NCBI RefSeq assembly: GCF_030813715.1
Contig: NZ_JAUSUZ010000001.1
Coordinates: 7,006,001-7,070,000, forward strand
Origin: Catenuloplanes indicus
GTDB taxonomy: Bacteria; Actinomycetota; Actinomycetes; Mycobacteriales; Micromonosporaceae
Length of the DNA stretch: 64,000 nt
Direction of reading: 5' to 3'
Position 1 is the stretch's first letter. Each line of letters opens with the position of its first letter. This document shows positions 17,618-64,000 of this stretch, one piece after another. The notes under the pieces are model-generated. The model had not been told where the DNA came from. It did not search any database and worked only from the letters and a program-made list of their open reading frames with translations. The position numbers were made by a program, and so were the translations under genes.

Positions 17618-17618
17618 C

Positions 17619-19367: not shown

Positions 19368-20632
19368 GCGGTGTGCAGCTCCGGATCGCGTTCCACCGGT
19401 ACACAGCGCAGGTCCAGCAGCAGCCGGCCGCGTTCGACCCGCCCGAGCACCGCGGGGTCGCCGAGCCGCAGCCGGCGCGCGTACGTCTCGGGCAGCGCGA
19501 CCGCCCAGGACGGCAGCGTGTGGCCGGGGGCGCCACCGCCGCCGACGACCGCCTCGGTGGCGACTGGCACCGCGTCGACGCCGTCCGCCCGCAGCTTCCC
19601 GGCCAGCGCCTCCGCCCTGGCTCGCAGCGCGGCCGGCTCCTCGTCCAGCGCGGCCAGCACGGGCACGGCCGGGTCGCGCAGCGTCGCCTCCAGCGCGGCC
19701 AGCGTCAGCTTGTCCACCCGCAGCGCCCGTGCCAGTGGGTGCCGCCGCAGCCGTTCCACGGTCGCCGCGTCGCCGAGCAACAGTCCGGCCTGCGGCCCGC
19801 CGAGCAGCTTGTCGCCACTCGCGGTCACCAGCGTCGCGCCCGCGGCCAGCGCCGTCGCCGCGTCCGGCTCGTCCGGCAGCCCCGGGTGCGGCGTCAGCAG
19901 CCCGGACCCGATGTCGGCCACCACCGGAACCCCGAGACCCGACAGATCCTCCACGGGTACGGCCGAGGTGAACCCCTGAACCACGAAGTTCGACGGGTGC
20001 ACCTTCAGCACGAACCCCGTGTCCGGCCCGATCGCGCCCGCGTAGTCGGCCGCGGTCGTCCGGTTCGTCGTCCCGACCTCCCGCAGCCGGGCGCCGGTGC
20101 TGACCAGCAGGTCCGGCAGGCGGAACCCGTCGCCGATCTCCACCATCTCGCCGCGGCTGACCACGATCTCGCGCCCGGCGGCCAGCGCGGTCGCGGCCAG
20201 CACCAGCGCGGCGGCCCCGTTGTTGACCACGTGCACGCCACCGGCGCCCGGCACCGCGGCCGCTAGCGCCGCCATCGCGGTCCGCCCGCGCCGGGCCCGC
20301 CGCCCGTCCGCCAGATCGAGTTCCACGTCCGTGTACCCGGCCGCCTCCACCACCGCGCTGACGGCATCCGCGGACAGCGGCGCCCGGCCGAGGTTCGTGT
20401 GCACGATGACGCCGGTTGCGTTGATCACCGGCCGCATGCCCGCGGCGGGCAGCGCGCCGACCGCGGCCGCGATCACGTCCTCCGGCGCGATCTCGCCGCG
20501 CCGGGCCCGCTCCTGCGCGGCCACGACCGCGCTCTTCACCGCACCACGCCCGAGCCGCGCACCCGCGGCCACCAGCCGCGGATCGGCCAGCGCCGTGTCG
20601 GTCCGCGGAATCCGCCGCCGGAAGTCGGTCAT
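19355..20632 (-). CDS. selA: L-seryl-tRNA(Sec) selenium transferase
   Basis: PLP enzyme that converts Ser-tRNA(Sec) to Sec-tRNA(Sec) using selenophosphate. The 425-residue protein has INATGVIVHTNLGRAPLS in the N-terminal region, VNNGAAALVL, GEMVEIGDGFRLPDL, EVGTTNRT, KVHPSNFVVQGFT and the PLP lysine Lys275 in SGDKLLGGPQAG. It is the first gene of selA-selB. Use of SelA rather than PSTK/SepSecS is the bacterial route. It is divergent from the CAP gene at 20784, and the 151-bp gap must carry both promoters. Confidence 0.97.
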   Translation of the reverse strand: MTDFRRRIPRTDTALADPRLVAAGARLGRGAVKSAVVAAQERARRGEIAPEDVIAAAVGALPAAGMRPVINATGVIVHTNLGRAPLSADAVSAVVEAAGYTDVELDLADGRRARRGRTAMAALAAAVPGAGGVHVVNNGAAALVLAATALAAGREIVVSRGEMVEIGDGFRLPDLLVSTGARLREVGTTNRTTAADYAGAIGPDTGFVLKVHPSNFVVQGFTSAVPVEDLSGLGVPVVADIGSGLLTPHPGLPDEPDAATALAAGATLVTASGDKLLGGPQAGLLLGDAATVERLRRHPLARALRVDKLTLAALEATLRDPAVPVLAALDEEPAALRARAEALAGKLRADGVDAVPVATEAVVGGGGAPGHTLPSWAVALPETYARRLRLGDPAVLGRVERGRLLLDLRCVPVERDPELHTACMS

Positions 20633-47919: not shown

Positions 47920-49677
47920 CTACTTCGGTGTCCAGAGCCAGGCGCGCGCCTTGTAAGACTTGATCATGACGGGCGTCTCGGTGAAGTCGGCCGCGTCGAG
48001 GCGCGCGTTGCCATCGGCGACCGTGTGCGGGTAGAGGCGGTCGGAGATCAGCGCGGCCAGCAGCAGCGCCGGGTCCGCCTCCAGCACGGTGCGCAGCGCG
48101 GCGCTGTCGACCAGCCGGTTCGTCTCGATGATCGTGGAGTCGGAGTAGCCGAGCGCGGCCGGCCGGATCTTGCCGAGCGACGCACCCATCCGCAGCCGCA
48201 GCGGCGTGGCGTACCGGTCGCGCTCCGCCCGCAACGCGACGGCGGTGCCGTGCAGCAGGTGGGCGAGCGCGCGCGGCAGGTCGATGTTGGCGGGCAGGAT
48301 GACGCTGATGCCGTCGCCGGCGACCTGACGGTCCGTGTCGGTCAGCGCAAGACTCATCTCACCCAGCGCCTCGGTGACCACGTGCAGGATGCGGCGCTGC
48401 ATCAGGTCCCGCCCGTCCGCGTCGTTCGCGCTGTAGCCGACCGCGTCGACCGTGAACATCATCCGCAGCGCGTGCCGCGGCGACCCCGGCCGGGACGGCT
48501 GCGGCACCTCGGCCACCGGATCGGGTGCGGCCGGCCACGGGCCGGCGGACGAGCCGGCCGTCGGTGCGTCCCAGCGCGCCGGATCCGGCGGGGCCGTGCG
48601 GGAGCCGGCGGACGATCCGCCTGAGGTGGCCGGCCGCTCGGGCGCCGGATCGGACGCGGCCGGCCACGGGCCGGCCGGCGGAGTACCACCGGGAGGTGCG
48701 GACGCCGGCGCCGCGGGCGCGCGCCGCAGGTTCTCCAGCGCGGTCGACGCGTCGTCCAGTTGCCGGGTCAGCCAGTGGCCGAAGCGGCGGTCGTCGGTGA
48801 CCGGGTCCAGCCCGCCGTCCCCGCGTGACCGGGCTGCCGCCGCGGCCTCGGAGAGTTCCCGCAGCGAGCCGGCCGCGATGCCGAGCATCCCGCTCAACCG
48901 CGCGGCCTCGGCCGCGAGGCGGGCCCGGTCGATGCCGGGCTCGCGCATCGAGCCGATCCGGCGCTGGTCGCCGGTCCAGATCCGGTAGAGGTAGCGCAGT
49001 ACCCCGGCGTGCCTCAGGTAGCGGGCCAGCGGCGGCAGCTCGTCCTCGCCGGCCCCCCAGGTGAGCGCGGTCAGGTTCGCCTCCGGCCCGGTGACCACCA
49101 GCCGGCGTTCCCGGCGGGTGTCCTGGCGCGGCGACAGCTCCCATCCGCAGGCGTGGTCGCCGAACCGGATGCGGTCGTCCTGCCAGCCGGTCTGCGTGGC
49201 GAACTGGGGCAGCGCGGCCCGGTCCGGCGGACGGTCCGGGTGTGCCGAGGGCGCCCGGTAGACGCGGGCGGTGCCGATCAGCGCGTCGACGCCACCGGCC
49301 GCGGCGTCGTCCAGCCAGCGGTCCATCTCCACCCAGCCGGCGTCGTCGCCGCCGGTCAGGACCGCGGAGAGGACGAGCACGTCCCGGTCGCGGCGCAGAA
49401 TCGCGCGAAACCCGCCGCCCGCCGGCCCGAAGCCGCCATCGCGGGACCGCTCGGCCGGCCGGAGACCGTCGCCGGGCCGTTCCCGGGCGGCGATCGCGGC
49501 GACGCGCGGGCCGCCGCGCCAGTCGCTCGGCATGATCCGCAGTGGGGAGCCGGGGACCCGCGCGTCCATGCCCAGCACGTCGCCGCAGGCGGCCCAGAGC
49601 AGCTGGATCTGGTGCCGGGCAAGGGGCGCGGCCGGGCCGTCGAGCGGCGCGAAGGCGTGCAGGACCAGTGAGGTCAC
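47920..49677 (-). CDS. CATRA-like protein with C-terminal class III nucleotidyl cyclase-like domain
   Basis: 585-residue soluble protein. Residues 1-240, beginning LVLHAFAPLDGPAAPLARHQ then LLWAACGDVLGMD, resemble the CATRA N-terminal domain of actinobacterial conflict systems (from memory of the family, not a search). After a helical stretch and a Pro/Ala linker (about 320-400, with a repeated GPWPAA), residues 405-580 look like a class III adenylyl/guanylyl cyclase: TVDAVGYS with Asp411, RQVAGDGISVILP with Asp455 (the two metal positions), RLRMGASLG and a downstream NRLVDS. The usual Asn four residues before the catalytic Arg is Ile, so activity may be altered. It is divergent from a Pycsar-type effector and a Crp-like gene. 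Confidence 0.7.
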   Translation of the reverse strand: MTSLVLHAFAPLDGPAAPLARHQIQLLWAACGDVLGMDARVPGSPLRIMPSDWRGGPRVAAIAARERPGDGLRPAERSRDGGFGPAGGGFRAILRRDRDVLVLSAVLTGGDDAGWVEMDRWLDDAAAGGVDALIGTARVYRAPSAHPDRPPDRAALPQFATQTGWQDDRIRFGDHACGWELSPRQDTRRERRLVVTGPEANLTALTWGAGEDELPPLARYLRHAGVLRYLYRIWTGDQRRIGSMREPGIDRARLAAEAARLSGMLGIAAGSLRELSEAAAAARSRGDGGLDPVTDDRRFGHWLTRQLDDASTALENLRRAPAAPASAPPGGTPPAGPWPAASDPAPERPATSGGSSAGSRTAPPDPARWDAPTAGSSAGPWPAAPDPVAEVPQPSRPGSPRHALRMMFTVDAVGYSANDADGRDLMQRRILHVVTEALGEMSLALTDTDRQVAGDGISVILPANIDLPRALAHLLHGTAVALRAERDRYATPLRLRMGASLGKIRPAALGYSDSTIIETNRLVDSAALRTVLEADPALLLAALISDRLYPHTVADGNARLDAADFTETPVMIKSYKARAWLWTPK

Positions 49678-51134: not shown

Positions 51135-52415
51135 ATGACGGGAATGTTCGGCCGAGATCGCGAACATCGCGCGATCTCGGCTCTGCTGCGCCGGGGCGGG
51201 GAGGGCCCGGCCGCGGTGGTGATCGAGAGCCCGCCCGGCGGTGGCCGGACGCGGCTCCTGGCGGAGATCGGGGCCGGTGCGCGCGCGGCCGGCCGTACGG
51301 TCCTGCGACTGCCGGCCGGTCCGGTCGACGCGGCCGGGCTGGACCGGCAGCTCGCGTCCGCGGCGGCCCGGCCCGCCGGTGACGGCCCGGCGCCGCTGCT
51401 GATCGACGATCCGCAGTGGACCGACCCGGCGGTGGCGGTGGCGCTCGCGGGCGCCCGCCGCACCGCGCGGGTGCTGCCGATCCTGGCCCGCCGGGCCGGC
51501 ACCCGGCTGCCCGGGCTGGACCCGCTCGACCTGGCACGGGTGCTGCACGTACCGCTGGGCCCGCTCGGTCCGGACGCGACCGCCGCGGTGCTGGCGGCGC
51601 TGTTCGGCGCCGAGCCGGACGCGGCGTTGCGCGGGATGGCGGCCGTGGCGGGCGGCCTGCCCGGCCCGCTGATCGAGCTGGCCCGCGGCCTGCGGGACGA
51701 GCGTCTGGCCGTGGTGGAGGGCGGGCACGCGACGCTGCGTGACCTGCGGCTCCCCGCGGTGGTCCGGGACCGGATCGGGCACCGGGTCGGCCTGCTCACG
51801 CCGGTGGCGCGGCATCTGGTGCAGGTCGCGACCACCCTGGACGAGGAGTTCGGCCTGCGCGAGGTGGCCGGTCTGCTCGGCGGCCCGGCCGCGGCGCTGC
51901 TGCCGGCCGTCGACGAGGCGCTCACCGCGGGGCTGCTGGCCGGCCGCGGCGAGCGGCTGTCCTTCGCGCACGACCTGGTCCGCGCGGAGGTGACGAGGAC
52001 GATTCCCCGGGCGGTACGGGTGGCGCTGCACGACGAGGCCACCTGCCTCGACCGGGGGGCGCCCGGCGGCTTCCGGACCCGGCCTCCGATGACCGGCGGG
52101 CCGCGTACCGCGCTGGCGGACCTGCACCGGGACACGGCGCGACCCGGTCATGCCCGCCCGCCGGTGCAGCGCACGCGGCTCGCCGGTGACCGGTTCCGGC
52201 CGGCGGCGGGCCCGGCGGTGTCCGGGCTGAGCGAGCGGGAGCGCGAGATAGCGCTGCTGGTCGCGACCGGGCTGACCAACGCCGCGATCGCCTCGAAGAT
52301 CGAGTTGTCCCCGCACACCGTCAACTACCACCTGCGCCAGATCTTCCGGAAGCTCGGCATCGCCTCCCGCGCCGAGCTGGCCGCGCTGATCTCCGGCGAC
52401 GACGGGCCACGCTGA
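51135..52415 (+). CDS. Short LuxR/LAL-type regulator with a degenerate ATPase
   Basis: 426-residue protein with an N-terminal AAA-like domain (GRDREHRAISALLRRGG, IESPPGGGRTRLL, LLIDDPQWTDP) and a C-terminal LuxR HTH (GLSEREREIALLVATGLTN, IASKIELSPHTVNYHLRQIF). The Walker A Lys is Arg here (GGGRT), so nucleotide hydrolysis may be lost. The long helical repeat region of classical LAL regulators (about 900 aa) is missing, replaced by a 100-residue linker. RBS GAGGGGGA precedes ATG 51135. It borders the biosynthetic cluster and may be one of its regulators. Confidence 0.88.
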   Translation: MTGMFGRDREHRAISALLRRGGEGPAAVVIESPPGGGRTRLLAEIGAGARAAGRTVLRLPAGPVDAAGLDRQLASAAARPAGDGPAPLLIDDPQWTDPAVAVALAGARRTARVLPILARRAGTRLPGLDPLDLARVLHVPLGPLGPDATAAVLAALFGAEPDAALRGMAAVAGGLPGPLIELARGLRDERLAVVEGGHATLRDLRLPAVVRDRIGHRVGLLTPVARHLVQVATTLDEEFGLREVAGLLGGPAAALLPAVDEALTAGLLAGRGERLSFAHDLVRAEVTRTIPRAVRVALHDEATCLDRGAPGGFRTRPPMTGGPRTALADLHRDTARPGHARPPVQRTRLAGDRFRPAAGPAVSGLSEREREIALLVATGLTNAAIASKIELSPHTVNYHLRQIFRKLGIASRAELAALISGDDGPR

Positions 52416-52470: not shown

Positions 52471-53112
52471 TCACCCTTCGTCCAGCGCGGCGAGCAGGCG
52501 GTCGGTGACCGGCGTGACCGCGAAACGGCGTGCGGCGAAGGCGAGCGCGGCCCGGTGCTCGTCCGGGGTGAAGTCCGCGACCGCGTCCGCGACCAGGAAC
52601 GGCGCGATGTCCCGGGTGAACGCGTCCGCGGCAGTGAACAGACAGCCCAGATGCGCGAAGACACCGCAGACGATCAACTGGTCCCGCCCGGCCGCGGCCA
52701 GTCGCGCGGCCAGGCCGGTGCCGTGGAACGCGCTCCACCGGGTCTTGCGGATCACCACGTCGCCGGCCCGCGGTGCGAGCGCCGGATCGATGTCCCGGTC
52801 CTCCGGCACCGCCCGCATGCCCGGGCCCCACAGGTCGTGCAGCAGGCCGCGGTCCGCGCGCGTGGCGCCGCCGGGCTGCGCGCTGTAGAACACCGGCATG
52901 CCGTGCCGGCCGGCGGCGTCCCGTACCCGCGCGATGTTGGTCAGCAGCGTCGTGGTGGGTGAGCTGCCGGCGGGCAGCGCGCGGGTGAAGAACCGCTGCA
53001 TGTCGTGGATGAGCAGCGCCGCACGGCGCGGATCGGGCCGCCAGGACGGCCCGCCGGCCGGCCGGTCGAGATCTTGCGGCATCGGGTACGGCGTGATCGC
53101 CGGGATCGGCAT
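52471..53112 (-). CDS. PhzD-like isochorismatase (ADIC hydrolase)
   Basis: 213-residue hydrolase predicted to remove pyruvate from 2-amino-2-deoxyisochorismate to give 2,3-dihydro-3-hydroxyanthranilate (DHHA). It starts MPIPAITPYPMPQDLDRP and has LLIHDMQRFFT (catalytic Asp), VIRKTRWSAFHGT (catalytic Lys) and VCGVFAHLGCLFTAADAF, all very like PhzD. Isochorismate as substrate is the alternative, but the chorismate enzyme of the cluster is PhzE-like, which supports ADIC. It is the last gene of the minus-strand operon, 11 bp after the dehydrogenase stop. Confidence 0.9.
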   Translation of the reverse strand: MPIPAITPYPMPQDLDRPAGGPSWRPDPRRAALLIHDMQRFFTRALPAGSSPTTTLLTNIARVRDAAGRHGMPVFYSAQPGGATRADRGLLHDLWGPGMRAVPEDRDIDPALAPRAGDVVIRKTRWSAFHGTGLAARLAAAGRDQLIVCGVFAHLGCLFTAADAFTRDIAPFLVADAVADFTPDEHRAALAFAARRFAVTPVTDRLLAALDEG

Positions 53113-53123
53113 CGGAGCTCCCT

Positions 53124-53852
53124 TCAGGCGCGCAGTGCGGCGCCACCGTCCACGTAGAGGTCGTGCATGGTCACGTGCCGGGCGCGGTCGGAGACCAGGA
53201 ACGCGACCGCGTCCGCGACGTCCGACGGCGACGCGACCCGGCCGAGCGGGATGCCGGTCCGGAACGCATCGGCGGACCCGGCGATCGCACCGGCCGGTGT
53301 GGAGCCGAGCGCGCGCAGCATGCCGGTGTCGGTCGAGCCCGGGGCGACCACGTTGCACCGCACGCCACTCCCGGCCAGCTCAAGCCCGAGGCAGCGGGTG
53401 AAGTGCGCGGCCGCGGCCTTCGCGGCCGCATAGGCGGCCAGATGCATCCGGGGTACGCCGGCCGCGTTCGAGCCCACGGTGACGATCACGCCGGTGCGGC
53501 GGGCGGCCATCCGGCGGCCGACCGCGCGGCTGACGTGGAAGACACCGGTCGCGTTGACCGCGAAGACCTCGGCCCAGTCCGCGTCGCTGGTCTCCAGCAC
53601 CGGCCCGGCGCACAGCACCCCGGCCACGTTGACCAGGATCGCGATCGGGCCGACGGTCGCCTCCACGTCGGCGACCAGCCGCTCGACGGCGCCGGCGTCC
53701 CGGACGTCGAGCGGCCGATGGTGCCCGGCACCGTGCAGGTCGGCGCCGATGACCGTGGCGCCGTCCGCGGTCAACGCCCGGACCACGGCTCGCCCGATGC
53801 CACCGGCCGCGCCGGTGACCAATGCGATCCGCCCGGCCAGCGGACCGGTCAT
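53124..53852 (-). CDS. EntA-like SDR, predicted DHHA dehydrogenase
   Basis: 242-residue short-chain dehydrogenase. It has [16 protein letters not shown] (NAD binding), [31 protein letters not shown] with the Tyr-x-x-x-Lys site, and [18 protein letters not shown], all like 2,3-dihydro-2,3-dihydroxybenzoate dehydrogenase (EntA/DhbA). With the PhzD-like enzyme beside it, the likely reaction is NAD-dependent oxidation of DHHA to 3-hydroxyanthranilate. Its ATG at 53852 overlaps the monooxygenase stop by four bases. Confidence 0.9.
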
Positions 53853-55003
53853 GACGTCGCTCCGGCCGACGCGTCGTAGCCGTAGAGCCAGTCGCGGTCC
53901 GGGGGAGTGGCCAGGCGGCGGTCGCGGCGGCGCTGCCGCACGCCGTCCGGCAGGTGGTGTTCGGCGTCGGCCACGCGGATCGCGGTCGCGATCCGGTGGG
54001 CCCGCGCGCCGCGCACCGAGTCGTACCGTTCCAGCGGCGCCCGTCCGCTCAGGCAGCCGGCCAGCGCCACCGCGTCCTCCAGCGCCTGCGACGCTCCCTG
54101 TGCCAGCCACGGCAGCGCCGGGTGCGCGGCGTCGCCGAGCAGCACCAGCCCGCCCCGATGCCGGCGCGGCACCGGCGCGCCCGCGTAGAGCGGCCACACC
54201 CGGCCCCGGCCCGCGGCCGCGGAGAGCAGCGCGCGGACCGAGCCGCACCACTCCGCGTACCCCATGATCAGGCGTTCCCGCGGCACCGCGGGGGACCGGG
54301 CCGGCGCGGTGGCCACGACGTTGACCATGCGACCGCCGCGGACCGGGTAGGCGACGCAGTGCCGGCCCGGACCGAGCCAGACGCGCACCCGGTGCGGCCG
54401 GACCAGATGCGCCGGCAGGTCGTCCGCCGGGACCACGGCCCGGTACGCGACGTGCCCGGAGAAGCGCGGCCCGAGCCCGCCGTCGCCGCCGAGCACGCCA
54501 CGCAGCGCGGAGTGCACACCGTCCGCGCCGATGACCAGGTCCGCGGCGTACTCGCCGCCGTCCGCGAAGCGCAGCCGCACGCCGTCCCGCCCGACCGACG
54601 CGCCGACGCAGCGACGGCCGAGGAACAGCCCGGCGCCGCCGCCGGTGTCCACCGCGGACAGCAGCGCGGCGGACAGCTCGCCCCGGGTGAGCGCGAGATA
54701 CGGCACGCCGTACCGGGCCTCCGCGTCGTCCAGCGCGGTGCGGCCGATCAGCGAGTTGTCCCGCCAGCGGCGCAGCTCGACCGCGTCCGGCCGGACCGTG
54801 CTGTCCGGGTGCGGCAGCGCGCCGACCTCGCGTAGCGCGCGGGCGCCGTTCGGGGTGATCTGGATGCCGAGCCCGACCCCGGACAGGCCGGGGTGGTCAC
54901 GGCGGTCGAAGACGTCGCAGCGCAGTCCGGCCCGGGCCAGCGCGGCGGCCGCGGCCAGCCCGCCGATCCCGGCGCCGACCACGGCGATCCGTGGCTGGTG
55001 CAT
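53849..55003 (-). CDS. FAD-dependent aromatic hydroxylase
   Basis: 384-residue group A flavoprotein monooxygenase of the salicylate or 3-hydroxybenzoate hydroxylase type. Visible motifs are [20 protein letters not shown] (FAD dinucleotide fold), [12 protein letters not shown] (the DG motif) and [20 protein letters not shown] with LEDAVAL (the GD motif). It should hydroxylate an aromatic pathway intermediate with NAD(P)H and O2. It lies between the EntA-like dehydrogenase (4-nt overlap) and the ligase gene (8 bp), so it is part of the operon. Which ring position is hydroxylated cannot be told. Confidence 0.9.
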
Positions 55004-55011
55004 GGTTCCTC

Positions 55012-56286
55012 CTAGTAGTAGGACAGCGCCCTGGCCCAGTCCTCGTCCGGGCCGAAGAGCGCGCGTGGCTTGACCACGTCCGGCGCGGCGGTGAGCACGT
55101 GGTGCGGGACCAGGCCGCCGGGCGGCAGCGCGGTGACGTCCGCGGGCACGCCGTACCGGCTCCGGATCGCGCCGGCCAGCGCGTCCGCGGCGGACCGGTC
55201 CGCCTCCAGCTCCACGACCAGCCGGTCCGGCAGCGCGCGGGCACGCCAGAACAGCACGCCGGGCAGCGCGAGGACCAGCTCCTCCAGGTCACCCGGGGTG
55301 ACGGTGACGCCCGCGACCCGGTGCCCGGCCGCACCCCGGCCCAGCACGCGTACGGCCGGCAGTGCCCACCCGCACGCGCACGGCTCGTCCGACACCTCGA
55401 CCAGGTCCTCGGTGTCGTAGCGCAGCAGCGGCATCGCCTCGCGGTAGAGCGGCGTGACCACCAGGTGCCCGCGCCCGGCCGGTGCGGCGTGTCCGGTCAC
55501 CGGGTCGCGGACCTCGAAGATCGCCCGGTCCGCCCACAGGTGCAGGCGGCCGGCCGGGCACTCACCGGCCAGGCTGCCGCACTCGGTCGCGCCGTACTCC
55601 TCGACGACCGTGGTGTTCCAGAGGCGCGCGATCCGGGCCCGTCTGGCCGGGCCGAGCGGTTCGCCGCCGACGAACAGCGCGCGCAGCGCCGGGAAGTCGC
55701 GGGCCGGCTCCAGCCCGGCCGCGTGCGCGGCGGCGGCCCAGAACAGCGTGTCGGTCGGCATCGACCAGGTGAGCGTGACGCGCAGGTCGCGCAACACCCG
55801 GACCACCCGCGCGTACGGCATCGCGGTCGACCGGTTGTCGGCCGGCACCACGGTCGCACCGCGCATGCGGGCCGCTGCCTGCGCCAGATGCCCCGTGATC
55901 ATCAGCGCGTACGGCGTGCGGACCAGGAACGTGTCCGTGTCCCGGATGCCGACCCACTTGCGCGCGTACCGTTCCGCCAGGTCCAGCCAGTCGTGCTCGG
56001 TGTAGTACGACGAGGTGGGCGTGCCGGTGGTGCCGCTCGACTCGTGGTACGTGGCCAGCCGCCGCCGGTCCACCGCGAGCAGCCCGAACGGGTACGCGTC
56101 GCGCAGGTCCGCCTTGGTGGTGAACGGCAGCGCCGCCAGCCCGGCCCGGTCCACCGGCACGCCACCCCGCGCGCGGTAGAACGGCGAGCGCGCCGCCGCC
56201 GCGAGCGTCTCCGGCAGCCGCGCGTCCTGCACTGCGGTCAGCCCGTCCGGGTCCGTCCAGTCGCCGATCTCCGGCCGGTCAGACAT
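55012..56286 (-). CDS. PaaK-like AMP-forming acyl/aryl ligase
   Basis: 424-residue adenylate-forming enzyme of the phenylacetate-CoA ligase group. It has the phosphate loop YHESSGTTGTPTSSYY, MITGHLAQAAARMRGATVVP, LFVGGEPLGPARRARI, VVEEYGATECGSLAG and LLRYDTEDLVEV with a Cys pair (ACGW). It should activate an aryl acid such as 3-hydroxyanthranilate or 3-amino-4-hydroxybenzoate as adenylate or CoA ester. In known benzoxazole pathways an AMP ligase and an amidohydrolase cooperate to join two aminophenol acids; the amidohydrolase gene overlaps this one. No carrier protein is seen nearby. Confidence 0.88.
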   Translation of the reverse strand: MSDRPEIGDWTDPDGLTAVQDARLPETLAAAARSPFYRARGGVPVDRAGLAALPFTTKADLRDAYPFGLLAVDRRRLATYHESSGTTGTPTSSYYTEHDWLDLAERYARKWVGIRDTDTFLVRTPYALMITGHLAQAAARMRGATVVPADNRSTAMPYARVVRVLRDLRVTLTWSMPTDTLFWAAAAHAAGLEPARDFPALRALFVGGEPLGPARRARIARLWNTTVVEEYGATECGSLAGECPAGRLHLWADRAIFEVRDPVTGHAAPAGRGHLVVTPLYREAMPLLRYDTEDLVEVSDEPCACGWALPAVRVLGRGAAGHRVAGVTVTPGDLEELVLALPGVLFWRARALPDRLVVELEADRSAADALAGAIRSRYGVPADVTALPPGGLVPHHVLTAAPDVVKPRALFGPDEDWARALSYY

Positions 56287-57037
56287 GGGCCAGCTCCTCG
56301 AGGCGAAGCAGCCGGGTCGCGTTGTCCACGGCGACCGCGCGCCGGTCCGCCACGGTCAGGCCGAGCGCGCCGAGCTTGGTCACCTCCACCCGCGGGTCCT
56401 GCAGCGGATATTCCGTGCCGAACAGCACCCGGTGCGCGCCCAGCCGGCGGACCGCGAGCCGGGCCACCGCGGTGTACGCGCCGGACGTCTCGGCCAGCAC
56501 GTTCGGCAGCGCGGCCAGCCGGTGCAGCCCGTCGGTGTCCAGGCCGTTGCCGCCGCAGTGGCCGAAGACGAACGTGGTGGCCGGCCGGGTCACGGCCAGC
56601 GCGGCCAGGTCCTCCGCGCGGGCGCCCGGCCGGCCGAGGCAGACCACGTAGACCGGGTGACCGACGTCCGCCGCGATCCGGGCCAGCGCGGCCACGCCCG
56701 GCTCGCCGAGCGTGAAGCCGTGCACTGCCGGGGAGATCTCCAGGCCGCGGAAGCCGGCGGCCGCGCGGCGGTACTCGTCCGGGCCGCGGCGCGGGTCGGC
56801 GAAGTAGAACGGGACGAGCCGGCCACCGGACGCGGCGGCCGCCCGGCGTACCCCCTCGTTGTCGGGTCTCGTCGCGGAGCGGCCGCCCTGGCTGAGCTGG
56901 CGGGAGAGCCGGTCGATGCCGACCACGCCGCCGGCGCTCACCGCGGCGGTTCCGATGCCGGCCCGGTCCATGGCCGCGAGCAGCGCGGACGGCTCGCCGG
57001 GGCCGGGCGTCAGACGCGCGTGGAAGTCGATGATCAT
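56279..57037 (-). CDS. Amidohydrolase-2-family protein, possible benzoxazole-forming enzyme
   Basis: 252-residue TIM-barrel protein. It shows MIIDFHARLTPG, EISPAVHGFTLGE, FVFGHCGGNGLDT and LFGTEYPLQDPRVE. The family's first metal motif is usually D-x-H-x-H; here it reads DFHAR, and the usual GSD near the C-terminus reads GTE, so the metal site is altered and may be lost. Proteins of this family, paired with an AMP ligase, close the oxazole ring in several benzoxazole pathways, which fits the location directly behind the ligase gene (8-nt overlap). The reaction is inferred from context. Confidence 0.75.
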   Translation of the reverse strand: MIIDFHARLTPGPGEPSALLAAMDRAGIGTAAVSAGGVVGIDRLSRQLSQGGRSATRPDNEGVRRAAAASGGRLVPFYFADPRRGPDEYRRAAAGFRGLEISPAVHGFTLGEPGVAALARIAADVGHPVYVVCLGRPGARAEDLAALAVTRPATTFVFGHCGGNGLDTDGLHRLAALPNVLAETSGAYTAVARLAVRRLGAHRVLFGTEYPLQDPRVEVTKLGALGLTVADRRAVAVDNATRLLRLEELAHV

Positions 57038-58098
57038 TGTTCCACGCAGGTCTCGTCGATCGGGTAGCCGACGTGCCGGTCCGCGTCCGGCAGACAGCCG
57101 AGGATCTCGTCGCCCGGGCGCAGCGCGGTCGAGTTGAGCACCGCGCCGCCGGGGCCGAGCACCCGCACGTGCCAGTCGTCCTGCACGATCAGGTTGACCG
57201 GCTCGCCGCCGGGCGCGACCGCGTCGATGGAGAGCAGCGGCCGCGTCTCGATCTTGATGCGTCCCACCGTGACCGGGCGGGTCCGGCCGTCCGCGCTCAC
57301 CGCCAGCACCCGCCCGCCGGCCCGCAGCTCGCTCAGGTACGCGGTCCGCTCAGCGGAGACCAGCGTGTACGACATGATCGCGCCCGCGTTCACCCGGAAC
57401 GGCCGAGTCGGCATGTACGGCAGCGGGTGCGTCTCGCTGGCGCAGAGCACCAGCCCGCGCGACCGGGACCCGATCAGGATGCCCTCGTCCGGCCGCAGCA
57501 TGGTGCAGGTGTCCACACAGGCACGGTCACCGGGCCCGGCGTGGGTGACCGCGGTGACCCGCAGCGGTACCAGCGGCAGTTCGGCCGTGGGCGTGCGCAC
57601 CGCGGCACGCAGCCGGGTCGCGTCGCCGACCCGCGCCGGGGCCAGCAGCACGCCGTGCGGGCCGTGTTCCAGCACCGCGTGCTGCACGGCCGCGTCCTGC
57701 GGGTCGGCGGCGACGGTCACGATCGTGCCGGCCGCACCGGCGGCCGAGGCGAGCACGATCTCCAGCGGGATGTAGGTGGGGTCGGCGAAGCGCAGCAGCG
57801 TGTAGGCGTCCCGGGCCGCGCTCGCGCACGCCACCGCGAGTGTCTCCGGGCCGGTGACCTCGACGTACCGGCCCCAGCGGGGCCCGGTACCCGGCGGTTC
57901 ACCGGTCGTGACGATCACATCGGCGGTCTGCTCCGGGTCGTCGGTGATCAGCACCCGGAGCACGGTCGGCGGCAGCGTCGCCAGCAGGTCCGGGTCGTCG
58001 GAGACGATCGCGTCCAGGCCCTGGTGCAGCGCCTCCTCGCAGATCTCCTTGGTCAGGTCGCCGGTCGCCCGAACGTCCAGCCAGCACTGGGTCATCAT
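57034..58098 (-). CDS. 3-dehydroquinate synthase II / GriH-like enzyme
   Basis: 354-residue protein of the archaeal-type DHQ synthase II family. It starts with TQCWLDVRATGDLTKEICEE, then TYIPLEIVLASAAGAAGTIV, GDRACVDTCTMLRPDEGIL with GSRSRGLVLCASETHPLPYM, FRVNAGAIMSYTLV and the late TRPLLSIDAV-type segment. In actinobacterial gene clusters such proteins (GriH type) convert the amino-heptulosonate made by a GriI-type aldolase into 3-amino-4-hydroxybenzoate. The GriI-like gene is 19 bp upstream. Starts at ATG 58098 or 58095. A role in making dehydroquinate is less likely for an actinobacterium. Confidence 0.92.
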   Translation of the reverse strand: MMTQCWLDVRATGDLTKEICEEALHQGLDAIVSDDPDLLATLPPTVLRVLITDDPEQTADVIVTTGEPPGTGPRWGRYVEVTGPETLAVACASAARDAYTLLRFADPTYIPLEIVLASAAGAAGTIVTVAADPQDAAVQHAVLEHGPHGVLLAPARVGDATRLRAAVRTPTAELPLVPLRVTAVTHAGPGDRACVDTCTMLRPDEGILIGSRSRGLVLCASETHPLPYMPTRPFRVNAGAIMSYTLVSAERTAYLSELRAGGRVLAVSADGRTRPVTVGRIKIETRPLLSIDAVAPGGEPVNLIVQDDWHVRVLGPGGAVLNSTALRPGDEILGCLPDADRHVGYPIDETCVEQ

Positions 58099-58117
58099 GG
58101 TTCCCTTCTTCGGAGGG

Positions 58118-58909
58118 TCAGAGCAGCGCCGGTACGCGCTGGTCGTGGACGAGGGCGGCGACGGATCGGGTCATCGCGCCCGGGTCCGGCGCCTCGAAGA
58201 TCAGCCGGCCGACGGCGGCGCCCGCGGCACCGGACCGCAGTGCGGTGCCCAGGTGCTCCAGGACCGCGGTGGCGCCGCCGTCGGTCGTGCCGCCCGCGGC
58301 CAGCACCGGGATCGGGCAGGCCGCGGTGATCCGGGCGATCTGGGCGGCGTCGGCCGGCAGCGCTGTCTTGACCAGGTCCGCGCCGATCTCGGCCGCCACC
58401 GTTACCGCGTGGGCCACCAGGTCCGGGTCGCGCCCGTCGCGGATGCCCGGCCCGCGCGGGTAGATCATGGCGAGCAGCGGCAGTCCCCACCGGTCGCAGG
58501 CGTCCGCGACCGAGGCCAGGTCGGCGAGCTGCCGCGCCTCGGTCGGCGACCCGGCGTTGACGTGCACGCTGACGCCGTCCGCGCCCAGCCGCAGCGCCTC
58601 CTCGACGCCGGTGACCAGCACCTTCGCGTCCGGGTCGGGCGCGATGCCGGTGCTGGCGCTCAGATGCACGATCAGCGACAGACCCCGGAACCAGCCGGTA
58701 CGGACGTGCCGCAGCGCGCCCTTGTGCAGCACCACCGCGTCCGCGCCGTGGTGCGCGGCCGCCCGCAGCAGCGGGTCCAGCCGGCCGTCCCGGACGATCG
58801 GGCCCGCGCCGATCGGGTGGTCCAGCGCCACCACCAGCAGTCCCCGGTCGCCGTGCCGGTGCAATCGCTCCCGGCGCATCCGCCGGGCGAACGTCTCATT
58901 CACCGGCAT
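58118..58909 (-). CDS. GriI-like class I aldolase (2-amino-4,5-dihydroxy-6-one-heptanoate-7-phosphate synthase)
   Basis: 263-residue TIM-barrel aldolase related to archaeal ADH synthase. It begins MPVNETFARRMRRERLHRH, the same opening as its relatives, then LLVVALDHPIGAGPI, VVLHKGALRHV with a Lys, VSVHVNAGSPTEARQL, LLAMIYPRGPGI and GADLVKTALP with the Schiff-base Lys. GriI-type enzymes join aspartate semialdehyde and dihydroxyacetone phosphate, which the GriH-like enzyme then cyclises to 3-amino-4-hydroxybenzoate. It is the first gene of the minus-strand operon running to the PhzD-like gene. ATG 58909 is preferred to an ATG at 58939. Confidence 0.92.
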   Translation of the reverse strand: MPVNETFARRMRRERLHRHGDRGLLVVALDHPIGAGPIVRDGRLDPLLRAAAHHGADAVVLHKGALRHVRTGWFRGLSLIVHLSASTGIAPDPDAKVLVTGVEEALRLGADGVSVHVNAGSPTEARQLADLASVADACDRWGLPLLAMIYPRGPGIRDGRDPDLVAHAVTVAAEIGADLVKTALPADAAQIARITAACPIPVLAAGGTTDGGATAVLEHLGTALRSGAAGAAVGRLIFEAPDPGAMTRSVAALVHDQRVPALL

Positions 58910-59129
58910 GGTGCACCGACCTGGGAATTGCAAATCCACATCGCTTCTCCAAAGCGTCCGTTCAGCCCTTTCACCGAGGACGCTAGGTTCCGGCGCGGCG
59001 CGGTCCCACTACCTCTCCGAGCAGCCCGTTGCCCGGTCGGGTAGTTGTCCGCCGGAATGGCGCGGTGGCACGGTTTCCCCGGAATCCGCACCCATTTACG
59101 CATCTGATTGCAAAATTGAGGGGGAGATC
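58910..59129. promoter_or_regulatory. Divergent promoter region of the biosynthetic operons
   Basis: This 220-bp gap separates the minus-strand operon (GriI-like to PhzD-like) from the plus-strand PhzE-like gene. It is noticeably less GC-rich than its surroundings, with AT-rich patches near 58920-58960 and 59090-59115. It must hold both start sites, so it is the most likely target of the LAL regulators. I see no clear dyad. Confidence 0.55.
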
Positions 59130-61019
59130 GTGACCGCACCGCTGCGTACCGGCCCGGAGCCGCTCACCGCCGCGCGGGCCCGGGCCGTGCTGCGGGACGG
59201 CGTGCCCGCGTTCGCGGTGCTGCGCCGCGGCGACGGCCCGGTGGAGGTGCTGGTCGGCGACGTGCACGAGCACGCGCTGATCGCGGATCTGCCGCTGCCG
59301 CCGCCGGACGCCCCCGGCACCGGGCCGGACCTGGTGGCCGTGCTGCCCTACCGGCAGATCGCCGAGCGCGGGCTGGCCTGTGTGGACGACGGCGTGCCGC
59401 TGCTGGCCATGCCGGTCCGCGCCGCCGGCCGGCTGACCACGGCCGAGGCGCTGGCCGCGCTGCCGGACGACCGGGTGCCGCTGACCGGCGGCGGGTTCGA
59501 CGTCTCCGACCGGGCGTACGCGGACGCGGTCCGCCGCGTGGTGACCGGCGCGATCGGCCGGGGCGCCGGCTCCAACGTGGTGCTGCGCCGCCGCTACCGG
59601 GCCGTGGCGCCGGACTGGTCGGCCCGCGCCGCGCTCGCGGTCCTCGGCCGGCTGCTGCGCGCGGAGACCGGCGCGTACTGGACGTTCCTGTTCCACGGCG
59701 GCGGGCGCACGCTGATCGGCGCGTCCCCGGAGTGCCACGTGCGGCTGGCGGACGGGCGTGCCACCATGCACCCGATCAGTGGCACCTACCGCTACCCGCC
59801 CGGCGGCCCGACCGAGGAGGGCCTGCGCGCGTTCCTGGCCGACCGCAAGGAGTCGGAGGAACTGCTGATGGTCGCGGACGAGGAGCTGAAGATCATGGCG
59901 CGGGCCTGCGCCGGGCCGCGGCTGACCGGGCCGTACCTGCGCCCGATGTCACGGCTGGCGCACACCGAGTACCTGGTGACCGGCCCGGCCCGGCTCGGCG
60001 CCCGCGACCTGCTGCGCGAGACGCTACCCGCGCCGACGGTGACCGGCAGCCCGGTGCCGAGCGCGTGCCGGGTGATCGCGGCGCACGAGCGGGACGGGCG
60101 CGGTTACTACGCCGGCGCGATCGCGCTGGCCGGGCGCGCGGGCGGCCGGCGCACGCTCGACTCAGCGCTGCTGATCCGCACCGCGGACGTGGACCCGCGC
60201 GGCCACGTCGAGATCTCCGCGGGCGCCACGCTGGTCCGGCACAGCGACCCGGCCGTGGAGGCGGCGGAGACCCGGGTGAAGGCGTCCGCGCTGCTGGCCG
60301 CGTTCTCCGGCACCGTCGCCCCGGCCCGGCCGGTGCCCTTGCCGCCGCTGCCGGCCGGGCTCCTGAGCGCGCGGAACGCGGGACTGTCCCGGTTCTGGCG
60401 CGGCGCACCGGTACGGCCGGCGGGCGAGCTGGCCGGCCGGCGCGCGGTGATCGTCGACGCGGAGGACGGCTTCACCGCGATGCTGGCGGAACTGGCCCGC
60501 GCGCTCGGCCTCGCGGTGCGCGTGACCCCGCTGACCACGTACCGTCCGGGGCTCGAAGATCTTGTGATTCTCGGCCCCGGGCCGGGTGACCCGCGCGACC
60601 TTGCCGACCCGCGGATCGCCCGGCTCCGCGCGCTGGCCGGGGAACTGGTCGCGTCGCGCGCGCCCACGCTCGCGGTCTGCCTCGGTCACCAGGCGGTCGC
60701 GGCCACGCTCGGCCTGCCGATCCGCGCACTGCCCCGGCCGGAACAGGGCGTGCAGCGCGTGGTGCGGCTGGACGGCCGGCCGGAGCGGGTCGGCTTCTAC
60801 AACACGTTCGCGGCGCTGTCCGGCGTGGACGCGATCGACTGCCCGCTCACCGGCGACCGGGTCGGCGTGCTCCGCGACCCGGCCACCGGCGTGGTGCACG
60901 GCCTGGCCAAACCCGCGCTGCGTACGGTCCAGTTCCATGTGGAGTCGCTGCTGACCGAGAACGGCCCGGCCGTCCTTCGCCGCCTGATGACCGCATGCTT
61001 TTCACCGGCAATTGTGTAA
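59130..61019 (+). CDS. PhzE-like 2-amino-2-deoxyisochorismate (ADIC) synthase
   Basis: 629-residue fusion of a chorismate-using domain (about 1-410) and a glutamine amidotransferase domain (about 430-629). The first has LIGASPECHVRLADG, MHPISGTYRYPPGGPTEEGL, FLADRKESEELLMVADEELK and MSRLAHTEYLVTGP, closely like PhzE and distinct from plain TrpE. The second has VILGPGPGDPRDL and the Cys nucleophile in LAVCLGHQAVA. It makes ADIC from chorismate and glutamine ammonia, feeding the PhzD-like and EntA-like enzymes encoded on the other strand. GTG 59130 follows GGGGGAG. Phenazine genes phzF, A, B and G are absent. Confidence 0.95.
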   Translation: MTAPLRTGPEPLTAARARAVLRDGVPAFAVLRRGDGPVEVLVGDVHEHALIADLPLPPPDAPGTGPDLVAVLPYRQIAERGLACVDDGVPLLAMPVRAAGRLTTAEALAALPDDRVPLTGGGFDVSDRAYADAVRRVVTGAIGRGAGSNVVLRRRYRAVAPDWSARAALAVLGRLLRAETGAYWTFLFHGGGRTLIGASPECHVRLADGRATMHPISGTYRYPPGGPTEEGLRAFLADRKESEELLMVADEELKIMARACAGPRLTGPYLRPMSRLAHTEYLVTGPARLGARDLLRETLPAPTVTGSPVPSACRVIAAHERDGRGYYAGAIALAGRAGGRRTLDSALLIRTADVDPRGHVEISAGATLVRHSDPAVEAAETRVKASALLAAFSGTVAPARPVPLPPLPAGLLSARNAGLSRFWRGAPVRPAGELAGRRAVIVDAEDGFTAMLAELARALGLAVRVTPLTTYRPGLEDLVILGPGPGDPRDLADPRIARLRALAGELVASRAPTLAVCLGHQAVAATLGLPIRALPRPEQGVQRVVRLDGRPERVGFYNTFAALSGVDAIDCPLTGDRVGVLRDPATGVVHGLAKPALRTVQFHVESLLTENGPAVLRRLMTACFSPAIV

Positions 61020-61171
61020 TGTGGCGGAACCGTTTGCCGCGTATTCCCTTCCGTACGGCGGGAGATCGCCCGATAGTCGTTCGGCCGGGCCACCCGAAAG
61101 GGTGTTCTCGGTCGCGCGCGCGATCGCCCACAATCGGCACCGAATGCGCCGGGGGTCCGGGACGGAGCACG

Positions 61172-63862
61172 ATGCAGACTGATGACCTGATCGGCCGGGA
61201 GCGGGAGTGGGCCGCGCTGGCCCGTGCGGTCGCGGCCACGGCCGGTGGCCGGGGCGGCTGCGTGGTGCTGTCCGGCCCGCCCGGCATCGGCAAGTCGCAC
61301 CTGGCCCACCGGGCCGCCCGGGTGGCCGGCCGGGCGGGGCTGATCGTGGCGTACCGGGCCGCGATGGAGGTGGACCGGACCGCGCCGCTGTTCAGCCTGG
61401 CCGGTGCGCTGGCGAAGGCGGACGTGCCGGAGCTGGCCTGGCTGCGCGGCGAGCGGCCGGAGCAGTCCACGCCGGAGCGGCTGGGCCGGGTGCTGGACGA
61501 TCTCGCGGCGGACCGGCCGTTGCTGGTGATCGTCGACGACGCGCAGTGGATGGACGAGTTCAGTGTGCTGGCCGTGCGCACACTGGTGCCCCGGCTGGCC
61601 TCGTCCGCGGTCCGGTGGCTGTTCGTGCGCCGGCCGGGCACCGGTGGCGCGGCCGGGGACGCGCTGGACGATCTGGTCACGCTGGGCGCGGAGGAGATCG
61701 TGGTCGGCCCGCTGGCCGAGGCGGACGTGGAGCGGCTCTGCGCCGAGTGCGTGGGCGTGCCGGTGGACGCGACCGTGCTGGCCCAGGCCGACCGGTGCGG
61801 CGGCAACCCGCTGTGGATCACGTCTCTGCTGGCCGGCATGCGGGCGGAGGGCCAGCTCGCGGTGGTCGGCGGGCGGGCCACGCTGCGCGGCGGCGACGTG
61901 CCGACCAGCTTCATCGGCGCGGCACAGCAGCGGCTGCGCGGCATGCCGCCGGAGGCCCGGCTGCTGCTGCGCGCCGGGTCGGTGTTCGCCCGCCCGTTCC
62001 GGCTCGGCGAGGCCGCGGCACTGCTGGCCCAGTCGGAGGAGTCGCTGTGGGCGTTCGCCGAGGACGACGTCACGGACGGCATGCTGGTCCCGGCCGGTGA
62101 CGCGTTCGCGTTCGAGCACGACATGCTGCGCGAGGTCGTCTACAACACGATCCCCGGGCCGCTGCGGGACGGCCTGCACCGTAAGGCCGCGGCCGTGATC
62201 AGCGCGTCCGGCGGGCTGCCGACCGAGGTCGCGGACCACCTGATGAAGGCCGGCCCGGCCACCGCGGCGGACCAGGCCGAGCTGCTGCGTACCGCGGCGG
62301 CCGGGATCGCCGCGCTCGCGCCCGGCGCGGCCGCGAACCTCTACCTGCACGCGGTCGGCGGGTTCGGCCCGCTGGACCCGCGCCGGGCCGCGTTCACCGC
62401 GGAGGCGGTGCCGCTGCTGGCCTCGGCCGGCCGGCTGGACGAGGCCCGGCGGCACGGCGAGGCCGCGTTCCGTTCCGGGCTGGACGCGACCACCGCGGCC
62501 CGGCTCTGCCTCGGGCTGGCCGAGGCCTGCAAACACGCCGGCCGCAACGACGAGGCGGTCGACTACACCAGCCGCGGGCTGTCCCGAGGCGGCGTCGCGC
62601 CGGACGTCCGGGCGAGGCTCTGCGCCGTCCGGGCGCACGCGCTCTTCTACGAGGGCGAGCTGAGCGAGGCGGACCGGGCCGGCGCGGAGGCACACACGAT
62701 CGGCGCGGACCCGGGCGCCGCCGTGTTCGGCCTGACCGCACGCTCGCTGGTCGCGGCCGCGCAGGGCCGGCTCGCCGACGCACTCGCGCACGCGCGGACC
62801 GCGGTCGCGCTGGCCGACGACGCCGGTGGCGAGGCCGTGCACCGGCACCCGCAGATCTGGCTCGGCAGCGCACTGACCATGGTGGACCGGCCGGACGAGG
62901 CCGAGCGGGTGCTGCGCGCCGGCCGGGCGGAGTCCACGCTGCTCGGCACCGGCTGGTCCGGGCCGCTCTGGCACTACTACGAGGCCGGGCTGCTGGCCGC
63001 CCGCGGCGACCTGCCGGACGCGATCGGCACCGCCGCGGCCGGCGTCGAACTGGCCGAGCAGCAGGCCGTGTGGCAGCTGACGGTGCCGCTGCTCGGCACG
63101 CTGATCCGGCTCAGCCTGCTCCGCGGCGACCCGGCCGGCGCGCGTGGCTACGCGGAGAAGATGCGCGAGCGGACCCGGACCGGGATCACCGCCGCGCCGG
63201 AGGACGTGCTCTGGCCGGAGGCGCTGCTGGCCTGGCAGGAGGACGGCCCGGAACCGGCCGTCTCCCACCTCCGCCCGCTCTACCAGCAGATCGAGGACCG
63301 GCCGGTGCTGATCGGCCAGGACCCGGGCGCCGCGGCCGTGCTGGTCCGGATCGCCATCGCGGCCGGCCGCACCGAGCTGGCCGAGGCCGTGGTCCGCGCG
63401 GCCCGCGCGCTCGCCGGCCGCAACCCGGACCTGCCGTCGCTGGCCGGCGCGGCCGCGCACGCGGAAGGGTTGCTGCGCGGCGACGTCACGCTGCTCCGCG
63501 AGGCGGTCGGCCGGTTCCGGCAGGGACCGCGGCGGCTCGCGCTCGCGGCCGCGCTGGACGACCTGGCCGCGCTGGACAAGAAGCCGGGTGCCGCGGCCGA
63601 GGCCGCCGAGCTGCGCGAGGCCTGCGGCGCCGCGGCGGTGCCCCGGCAGCGGCGCAACGGCAGCCGCACCGACCTGACCCCGACCGAGCTGCGCGTCGCG
63701 GCCCAGGTCGCCCGCGGCCGGCGCAACCGGGAGATAGCGGCGGAACTGTTCGTGTCCCCGCACACGGTCGACACCCACCTGCGGCACATCTACGCGAAGC
63801 TCAACATCAACAACCGGCCCGCGCTGGCCACCTGGTACACCAACCATCACGTGAACACGTGA
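61172..63862 (+). CDS. Full-length LAL-family LuxR regulator
   Basis: 896-residue regulator with an intact ATPase domain (LVVLSGPPGIGKSHLAHRAA-like Walker A with GKS, and LLVIVDDAQWMDEFSVLAVR as Walker B), a long helical TPR-like middle (about 330-800) and a C-terminal LuxR HTH (LTPTELRVAAQVARGRRNRE, IAAELFVSPHTVDTHLRHIY). ATG 61172 follows GGAG. Such large ATP-binding regulators often activate antibiotic clusters, so this is the best candidate for the pathway-specific activator. It lies between PhzE-like and the flavoprotein gene that runs off the right edge. Confidence 0.93.
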   Translation: MQTDDLIGREREWAALARAVAATAGGRGGCVVLSGPPGIGKSHLAHRAARVAGRAGLIVAYRAAMEVDRTAPLFSLAGALAKADVPELAWLRGERPEQSTPERLGRVLDDLAADRPLLVIVDDAQWMDEFSVLAVRTLVPRLASSAVRWLFVRRPGTGGAAGDALDDLVTLGAEEIVVGPLAEADVERLCAECVGVPVDATVLAQADRCGGNPLWITSLLAGMRAEGQLAVVGGRATLRGGDVPTSFIGAAQQRLRGMPPEARLLLRAGSVFARPFRLGEAAALLAQSEESLWAFAEDDVTDGMLVPAGDAFAFEHDMLREVVYNTIPGPLRDGLHRKAAAVISASGGLPTEVADHLMKAGPATAADQAELLRTAAAGIAALAPGAAANLYLHAVGGFGPLDPRRAAFTAEAVPLLASAGRLDEARRHGEAAFRSGLDATTAARLCLGLAEACKHAGRNDEAVDYTSRGLSRGGVAPDVRARLCAVRAHALFYEGELSEADRAGAEAHTIGADPGAAVFGLTARSLVAAAQGRLADALAHARTAVALADDAGGEAVHRHPQIWLGSALTMVDRPDEAERVLRAGRAESTLLGTGWSGPLWHYYEAGLLAARGDLPDAIGTAAAGVELAEQQAVWQLTVPLLGTLIRLSLLRGDPAGARGYAEKMRERTRTGITAAPEDVLWPEALLAWQEDGPEPAVSHLRPLYQQIEDRPVLIGQDPGAAAVLVRIAIAAGRTELAEAVVRAARALAGRNPDLPSLAGAAAHAEGLLRGDVTLLREAVGRFRQGPRRLALAAALDDLAALDKKPGAAAEAAELREACGAAAVPRQRRNGSRTDLTPTELRVAAQVARGRRNREIAAELFVSPHTVDTHLRHIYAKLNINNRPALATWYTNHHVNT

Positions 63863-63939
63863 TGTAACCCGTACTCCGCCTGGCGAAGGATGGCCCTCGG
63901 TGGTGAGGTCGCCGAACAAGGGGGAACGGGGCGGGGCGC

Positions 63940-64000
63940 GTGACCGTGCAAGCAGGCAGGATTCCGGTGCTCATCGTCGGAGCGGGCCCGGTGGGCGCGG
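63940..64000 (+). CDS. FAD-dependent monooxygenase, 3' end outside window
   Basis: Only the first 20 codons are present. From GTG 63940 (or GTG 63946) the protein reads TVQAGRIPVLIVGAGPVGA, the start of a Rossmann FAD-binding fold (G-x-G-x-x-G). A GGGGGAACGGGG stretch upstream can serve as ribosome site. It belongs to the group A hydroxylase type and would be a second tailoring oxygenase of the cluster. Confidence 0.8.
   Translation, partial: MTVQAGRIPVLIVGAGPVGA

Follow-up and report, generated by a model that had tools for sequence, protein, structure and literature searches.

A conserved two-route gene cluster of Catenuloplanes indicus that may encode an unprenylated dibenzodiazepinone related to diazepinomicin

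Diazepinomicin, an anticancer compound, is a farnesylated dibenzodiazepinone; bagremycin is an ester, and the bagremycin and ferroverdin clusters are not known to contain genes for 3-hydroxyanthranilate (3-HAA) and lead to an ester product. According to a published account, ring A of diazepinomicin comes from 3-HAA, and an origin of ring B from 3-amino-5-hydroxybenzoate is a speculation (PMC3871700). The same 3,5-isomer is used for a Streptomyces cluster called little homologous to the Micromonospora one, and the ring-B unit is named as 2-amino-6-hydroxybenzoquinone (PMC6524458). For the chorismate route to 3-HAA in limazepine, the steps giving 2-amino-2-deoxyisochorismate (ADIC) and 2,3-dihydro-3-hydroxyanthranilate (DHHA) were assayed in vitro and the final oxidation was inferred (PMC5958127). 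Here we describe a gene cluster of Catenuloplanes indicus that carries predicted routes both to 3-HAA and to 3-amino-4-hydroxybenzoate (3,4-AHBA). It lies at the right end of a stretch of 64,000 nucleotides (the window; bases 7006001-7070000 of contig 1 of the 9.25 Mb genome), and the DNA examined also took in 41 kb past the window's right end. From its sequence we put at roughly 65% the probability that the cluster makes, from these two acids, the unprenylated dibenzodiazepinone core of the diazepinomicin type.

Seven genes (GRII, GRIH, AMH, LIG, FMO1, SDR and ICM; Table 1) run leftward from 58939 to 52471, neighbours overlapping or being separated by no more than some 20 bases, and to the right of them stand the divergent PHZE, a large LuxR-family (LAL-type) regulator, FMO2 and a small conserved protein. 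PHZE starts with GTG, preceded by a GGGGGAG motif, and the gap between it and GRII is presumed to be a bidirectional promoter. The preliminary description of this DNA had placed both starter routes in one operon, which has to be amended, as PHZE is divergent and followed by a regulator. It had also pointed to the sequence beyond 64000, which contains most of the second of two flavin monooxygenases that belong to the cluster and that it had left unweighed.

Table 1. Genes and other features of the cluster and its edges, in window coordinates
Feature	Positions	Strand	Basis
LuxR-family regulator, convergent with the operon	51135-52415	+	Pfam GerE
ICM: PhzD-like isochorismatase (ADIC to DHHA), 213 aa	52471-53112	-	Pfam Isochorismatase
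SDR: DhbA/EntA/Lim4-like dehydrogenase (putative DHHA to 3-HAA), 242 aa	53124-53852	-	NCBIfam, solved relatives
FMO1: class A flavin monooxygenase, 384 aa	53849-55003	-	solved relatives, NCBIfam
LIG: PaaK-like aryl-acid AMP ligase, 424 aa	55012-56286	-	BagE/FevW model; AjiA1
AMH: Amidohydro_2 protein, HxR in place of HxH, 252 aa	56279-57037	-	Pfam, motif table
GRIH: GriH/BagC-like 3,4-AHBA synthase, 3-dehydroquinate synthase II (DHQS-II) family, 354 aa	57034-58098	-	family models
GRII: GriI/BagB-like class I aldolase, at most 273 aa	58118-58939	-	family models
Intergenic region, 190 bases, between divergent GRII and PHZE	58940-59129		gene borders
PHZE: PhzE-like ADIC synthase, TrpE-TrpG fusion, 629 aa	59130-61019	+	Pfam; PhzE-type 3r74, best solved relative, 563 bits
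LAL-type LuxR regulator, 896 aa	61172-63862	+	Pfam AAA_16 and GerE
FMO2: RebC/RdmE-like flavin monooxygenase, 549 aa	63940-65589 (63940-64000 in window)	+	Pfam FAD_binding_3, Rng_hyd_C
Conserved 206 aa protein without Pfam match, next after FMO2	65586-66206 (past window end)

Every gene that the preliminary description had named (PhzE-, PhzD-, EntA-, GriI- and GriH-like enzymes, an AMP ligase and an amidohydrolase) was recovered with family models and solved relatives. ICM scores higher with 3r77 (215 bits) and PhzD 1nf9 (210 bits) than with the isochorismatase 2fq1 (191 bits), and SDR, whose best solved relatives are 8sbv and 2fwm, reaches 292 bits with the NCBIfam model for 2,3-dihydro-2,3-dihydroxybenzoate dehydrogenase, under its cut-off of 312; together with the PhzE likeness of PHZE, these matches point to the chorismate/DHHA route to 3-HAA. 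GRII matches the BagB/FevI model at 316 bits (cut-off 500) and the 2-amino-3,7-dideoxyheptulosonate synthase subfamily at 280 bits (above the cut-off of 241), and GRIH matches the DHQS-II family at 477 bits (above the cut-off of 375) and BagC/FevH at 437 bits (cut-off 750), with no solved relative at E 0.01. LIG likewise stays under the cut-off of the BagE/FevW model (510 bits, cut-off 800), so that GRII, GRIH and LIG all resemble the bagremycin/ferroverdin proteins (BagB, BagC, BagE / FevI, FevH, FevW) below cut-off. We infer that GRII and GRIH make 3,4-AHBA from aspartate semialdehyde and dihydroxyacetone phosphate (DHAP). The two predicted starter routes of the preliminary description, from chorismate and from aspartate semialdehyde plus DHAP, thus stand on sequence matches, and two starter routes with a joining ligase imply the hybrid scaffold that it had proposed.

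The eight enzymes of the window occur in the same order, with PHZE divergent, in Micromonospora chalcea DSM 43026 (locus L141; L and G numbers denote loci and genomes of our comparison set) and in other loci. Judged on these M. chalcea-type loci, the diazepinomicin (ECO-4601) cluster of Micromonospora shares with the window the PhzE, PhzD and SDR genes, the GriI/GriH pair, an AMH of HxR type, the PaaK-like ligase and FMO1. The window differs in its LAL regulator, its FMO2 and its 206 aa protein, and an aspartokinase inserted before GRII in M. chalcea-type loci (396 bits in G311, above the NCBIfam cut-off of 376) is absent from the window's cluster genes. M. chalcea DSM 43026 has consecutive genes for an HMG-CoA synthase, a prenyltransferase and a histidine kinase. 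Mevalonate genes for farnesyl diphosphate are clustered there too, and a polyprenyl synthetase and a diphosphomevalonate decarboxylase are encoded close by; the published order of diazepinomicin orf10-orf11-orf12 is HMG-CoA synthase, prenyltransferase, histidine kinase (PMC3871700), and orf33, 19, 27 and 26 are listed as homologues of lim3-6 (PMC5958127). In M. chalcea six genes separate PHZE from SDR-ICM, and on this basis orf19 would be PHZE, orf20-25 the aspartokinase, GRII, GRIH, AMH, LIG and FMO1, and orf26-27 SDR and ICM. This mapping suggests that ring B of diazepinomicin is built from 3,4-AHBA and not from the 3,5-isomer. On paper, 3,4-AHBA hydroxylated at the ipso position with loss of CO2 and then hydroxylated once more gives 2-amino-6-hydroxybenzoquinone. 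The clusters of G328 and G311 have no DegT-type match (the type of 3,5-AHBA synthase) nearby, and the GRIH of G311 scores 620 bits against the BagC/FevH model for 3,4-AHBA synthase (cut-off 750). Searches of open-licence papers turned up nothing about relatives lacking the prenyl group or about 3,4-AHBA as a source of ring B.

The two-route cluster is a real, conserved unit, since the same gene order recurs across several genera and the arrangement is therefore not due to chance. Of 350 genomes of the family, 71 (counting the window's own) have a GRIH match, and 75 regions were fetched, one for each place of GRIH besides the window's own, with four more around further ligase matches. The adjacent pair seen in the window, a DhnA-type aldolase and a DHQS-II protein, was matched in all 75 of these GRIH regions. 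AMH, LIG, FMO1, SDR, ICM and PHZE were all present in 23 of the 75, a part of the 3-HAA set in 15, LIG with AMH, FMO1 or both but no 3-HAA gene in 19, and GRII and GRIH without LIG or AMH above threshold in 18; some fetched regions stop at contig ends, so that genes missing there are weak evidence. In a scan of named genomes with the AMH alignment (66 loci), 27 loci had all three 3-HAA genes at the thresholds used, and these carried GRIH and LIG in every case and FMO1 in 25 of 27. A plasmid collection gave no AMH match and 13 GRIH matches, all remote. The cluster family is frequent in Micromonosporaceae. Clusters without 3-HAA genes could draw on tryptophan, but a kynureninase search at E 1e-20 gave a match in each of 37 genomes (35 above the cut-off), so that presence is uninformative. 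Scores of about 390-400 bits were reached in five of the six genomes whose loci retain AMH but have no 3-HAA genes (L068, L069, L071, L074, L079, L091) and in one of the 11 that lack both (L070, L072, L076-L078, L084, L088-L090, L092, L093), the remaining genomes of both groups having only about 250-265 bits. These score classes, uncorrected for kinship, are suggestive of AMH going with a supply of 3-HAA.

The amidohydrolase separates two subfamilies. The first metal motif divides the aligned AMH rows into HxH, found in L168, L170 and others, and HxR, found in the window (DFHAR), apart from two rows with DFRVR and one that is truncated. Two histidines taken for the ligands on strands 5 and 6 are kept in every row, and all rows except L203 have Glu at the position where Asp is expected in the amidohydrolase family. 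Once loci whose ligase was missing or shorter than 350 aa and duplicate ligases had been removed, FMO1 accompanied 63 of 66 HxR rows (window included; the exceptions are L166, L189 and L200) versus none of eight HxH rows, and PHZE 49 of 66 versus none of eight. These counts keep L162, L202, L174, L166 and L128-L130, which the test for independent pairs omits; L168 and L202 are close to the ends of their contigs, which limits what their missing genes mean. The Arg of HxR may disable metal binding, and HxH may be the mark that defines benzoxazole formers. An AlphaFold2 model of the window's AMH (pLDDT 96.5) was matched by Foldseek to the barrel of orthobenzoate decarboxylase and 2-amino-3-carboxymuconate-6-semialdehyde decarboxylase; a non-oxidative decarboxylase role for AMH is possible, and we favour FMO1 as the enzyme responsible for loss of the carboxyl. 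In the ligase tree (91 rows), a group of 79 rows (SH-aLRT 99) takes in 65 of the 66 HxR rows, including those of the window and of the prenyltransferase loci, and no ligase of an HxH cluster; within it, a clade of 21 rows (99) holds the M. chalcea type and one of 55 rows (97) holds the window.

Homologues of AMH also occur outside actinomycetes, in genomes or metagenome-assembled genomes of a gammaproteobacterium, Pseudobacteriovorax and Bdellovibrionaceae (L162, L198, L202), two of them with GRIH and a ligase. An apparent AMH-LIG fusion in L105 was rejected, as the AMH end reads out of frame and the joint frame looks like a frameshift. Nocardiopsis sp. JB363 has both AMH types in one region (NZ_FRFF01000131.1, 117918-160239; L170 and L189): the HxH copy stands with a ligase, an aldehyde-dehydrogenase-family gene and an alcohol dehydrogenase, the HxR copy with PhzE, SDR and PhzD, and the region is a natural side-by-side comparison of the two subfamilies.

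The closest solved relatives of FMO1 are tropone 2-monooxygenase (195 bits), 4-hydroxybenzoate decarboxylase 8gsm (178), 6-hydroxynicotinate 3-monooxygenase (151) and decarboxylative vanillate 1-hydroxylase (145 bits), along with 4bjy, titled probable salicylate monooxygenase, which we take to be a 3-hydroxybenzoate 6-hydroxylase. Three of these are decarboxylating hydroxylases, two by title and 6-hydroxynicotinate 3-monooxygenase as the third. Their substrates 4-hydroxybenzoate and vanillate have 3,4-AHBA as an amino analogue, and we propose by analogy that FMO1 may be a decarboxylating ipso-hydroxylase of the 3-amino-4-hydroxybenzoyl ring. We infer the catalytic roles, the order of steps and the product from what is observed, namely gene content, gene order, homology and co-occurrence. 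PhzE, PhzD and SDR would convert chorismate to 3-HAA, and GRII and GRIH would convert aspartate semialdehyde and DHAP to 3,4-AHBA. LIG would adenylate one acid, probably 3-HAA, and couple it to the amino-phenol moiety of 3,4-AHBA, either as such or after oxidation. FMO1 would exchange the carboxyl of the 3,4-AHBA ring for a hydroxyl by oxidative decarboxylation, and FMO2 (171 bits with RebC) would add another hydroxyl, bringing ring B to the level of 2-amino-6-hydroxybenzoquinone. The seven-membered ring would close by condensation of the 3-HAA amine with a ring-B carbonyl, with the HxR AMH, which lacks the usual HxH metal pair, perhaps helping the condensation or an ester-to-amide shift. The expected core would be a trihydroxydibenzodiazepinone, C13H10N2O4, [M+H]+ 259.0713.

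Several observations pull against a dibenzodiazepinone. An ABBA prenyltransferase (PF11468) was found in nine of 30 genomes searched, in eight of them about 7-12 kb from GRIH and in G034 some 0.87 Mb away, and there was no match at E 1e-5 in the window's genome or in four others of its genus, so that the cluster is not that of diazepinomicin itself; G325 and G257, whose ligases sit in the clade of the prenyltransferase type, had no PF11468 match either. The assignment of M. chalcea L141/L207/L208 and similar loci to the diazepinomicin type itself derives from the prenyltransferase, gene order and published numbering. FMO2 is 35-38% identical to its best match in those named loci of the prenyltransferase type that have one. 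The best NCBIfam model for FMO1 is 3-hydroxybenzoate 6-monooxygenase (214 bits, below the cut-off of 459), and neither this enzyme nor tropone 2-monooxygenase, the best solved relative, is known to decarboxylate its substrate. The association of HxR with FMO1 is a single split on the ligase tree (one independent pair) and thus reflects one evolutionary event and not many, and one HxR ligase, L162, falls outside the 79-row group beside the HxH row L202, both on long branches. The gene set also varies among relatives. The Catenuloplanes genome G001 (locus L053, around 5000) has no PhzD between SDR and the LuxR gene, the remaining core genes being kept, and eight of the 75 regions (L057, L059-L061, L064, L075, L085, L100; Dactylosporangium and Phytohabitans types) have PhzE and PhzD without an SDR match, so that DHHA would there be oxidised by an enzyme encoded elsewhere or used as such. 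Ten LAL-bearing loci (L070, L072, L077, L078, L084, L088-L090, L092, L093), which with L076 form one clade on the ligase tree, have GRII, GRIH, LIG and FMO1 without AMH and 3-HAA genes; they are a derived branch in which the acid partner may be another one. Finally, the nearest solved relative of LIG is AjiA1 (6siw/6wuq; 524 bits, 59% identity), an enzyme of the biosynthesis of the benzoxazole AJI9561, and in a second tree, which omitted the long-branched L162, L202, L174 and L166 and the outgroup L128-L130, AjiA1 falls inside the HxR ligase group, joined to the long-branched L189. Given this placement, membership of the ligase group may reflect the use of 3-HAA as acyl donor, and that would fit diazepinone and benzoxazole alike.

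This last point bears on the probable benzoxazole of the preliminary description, in which LIG would join 3-HAA and 3,4-AHBA, AMH would close the oxazole as NatL2/NatAM or ClxA/ClxD do, and the flavoproteins would decorate the product. Besides the AjiA1 likeness, it gains from the closoxazole clusters (Clostridium cavendishii clx, Pyxidicoccus fallax pfx), which by their description share GriI/GriH-type genes, AMP ligase and amidohydrolase with the window (PMC12118335), and from the HxH AMH and homologous ligase (L168) of Nocardiopsis lucentensis DSM 44048, a species reported to produce nocarbenzoxazole (PMC9231205). The link of L168 to that compound rests on the strain being a producer, and the AMH family may well include benzoxazole formers; L168 and the HxH locus L170 each adjoin an aldehyde-dehydrogenase-family gene. 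The closoxazole loci, however, are described with two AMP ligases, the second of ClxC/PfxA type, where the window's cluster genes include one, and their five described genes comprise neither 3-HAA genes nor a flavoprotein; NatAM is given as only 18.4% similar to ClxD (PMC12118335). Among the nataxazole, A33853, microechmycin and AJI9561 benzoxazole clusters, mich and A33853 have 3-HAA genes in common with the window; the five conserved mich genes of microechmycin, as described, include no 3,4-AHBA genes (PMC9864271). The window's AMH is HxR and not HxH, a simple mixed benzoxazole acid would leave the decarboxylase-like FMO1 without a function, and loci with diazepinomicin marks contain this AMH and ligase within an identically ordered set of the eight enzymes. 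The preliminary description had named, as what would contradict it, a characterised cluster of like gene content but another product, and the loci with published diazepinomicin features largely fit that. The unprenylated dibenzodiazepinone core is the more parsimonious product, and we consider a mixed benzoxazole, its leading alternative, unlikely.

Even less probable is a product with no diazepine ring, either linear or cyclised in some other way; an aminoquinone, a phenoxazinone, or the amide or ester after oxidative decarboxylation would be examples. The ten LAL-bearing loci and L076, keeping LIG, FMO1, GRII and GRIH without AMH and 3-HAA genes, probably do make something else, and the LIG family includes the BagE/FevW synthetase model; the window, however, keeps the full 3-HAA route and AMH, like the prenyltransferase-bearing loci. 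That the two routes are neighbours by chance and serve independent products, with 3-HAA going to other pathways and 3,4-AHBA used here, would agree with how common GRII and GRIH are without LIG or AMH (the 18 regions above), but it is hardly credible given that both routes lie in one gene run, with SDR and PhzD after LIG and FMO1, and that the six genes recur together in 23 regions.

The cluster probably ends on the left with the LuxR gene, which has homologues above 150 bits in 22 of the fetched loci (repeated copies of a single genome are counted). A gene for a CATRA-N/CATRA-C protein (caspase and TPR associated family) lies at 47920-49677, some 2.8 kb to the left of the operon end. Farther left is a selenocysteine island (16491-20632) with tRNA-Sec (17525-17618), SelA (19355-20632) and an AIR-synthase-family gene (16491-17486) that is probably SelD.

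With regard to the family as a whole, we would give slightly less than even odds to the wider claim that unprenylated dibenzodiazepinones are widespread in Micromonosporaceae and other actinomycetes, that a His-to-Arg AMH closes a diazepinone and not an oxazole, and that ring B of diazepinomicin arises from 3,4-AHBA by oxidative decarboxylation. If true, the core machinery would be common and often prenyl-free, with the complete set in 23 of 75 GRIH regions of the family and a prenyltransferase beside the cluster in eight of 30 genomes, and the origin of ring B would become directly testable. HxH versus HxR is proposed as a one-residue marker that would tell benzoxazole formers from diazepinone formers.

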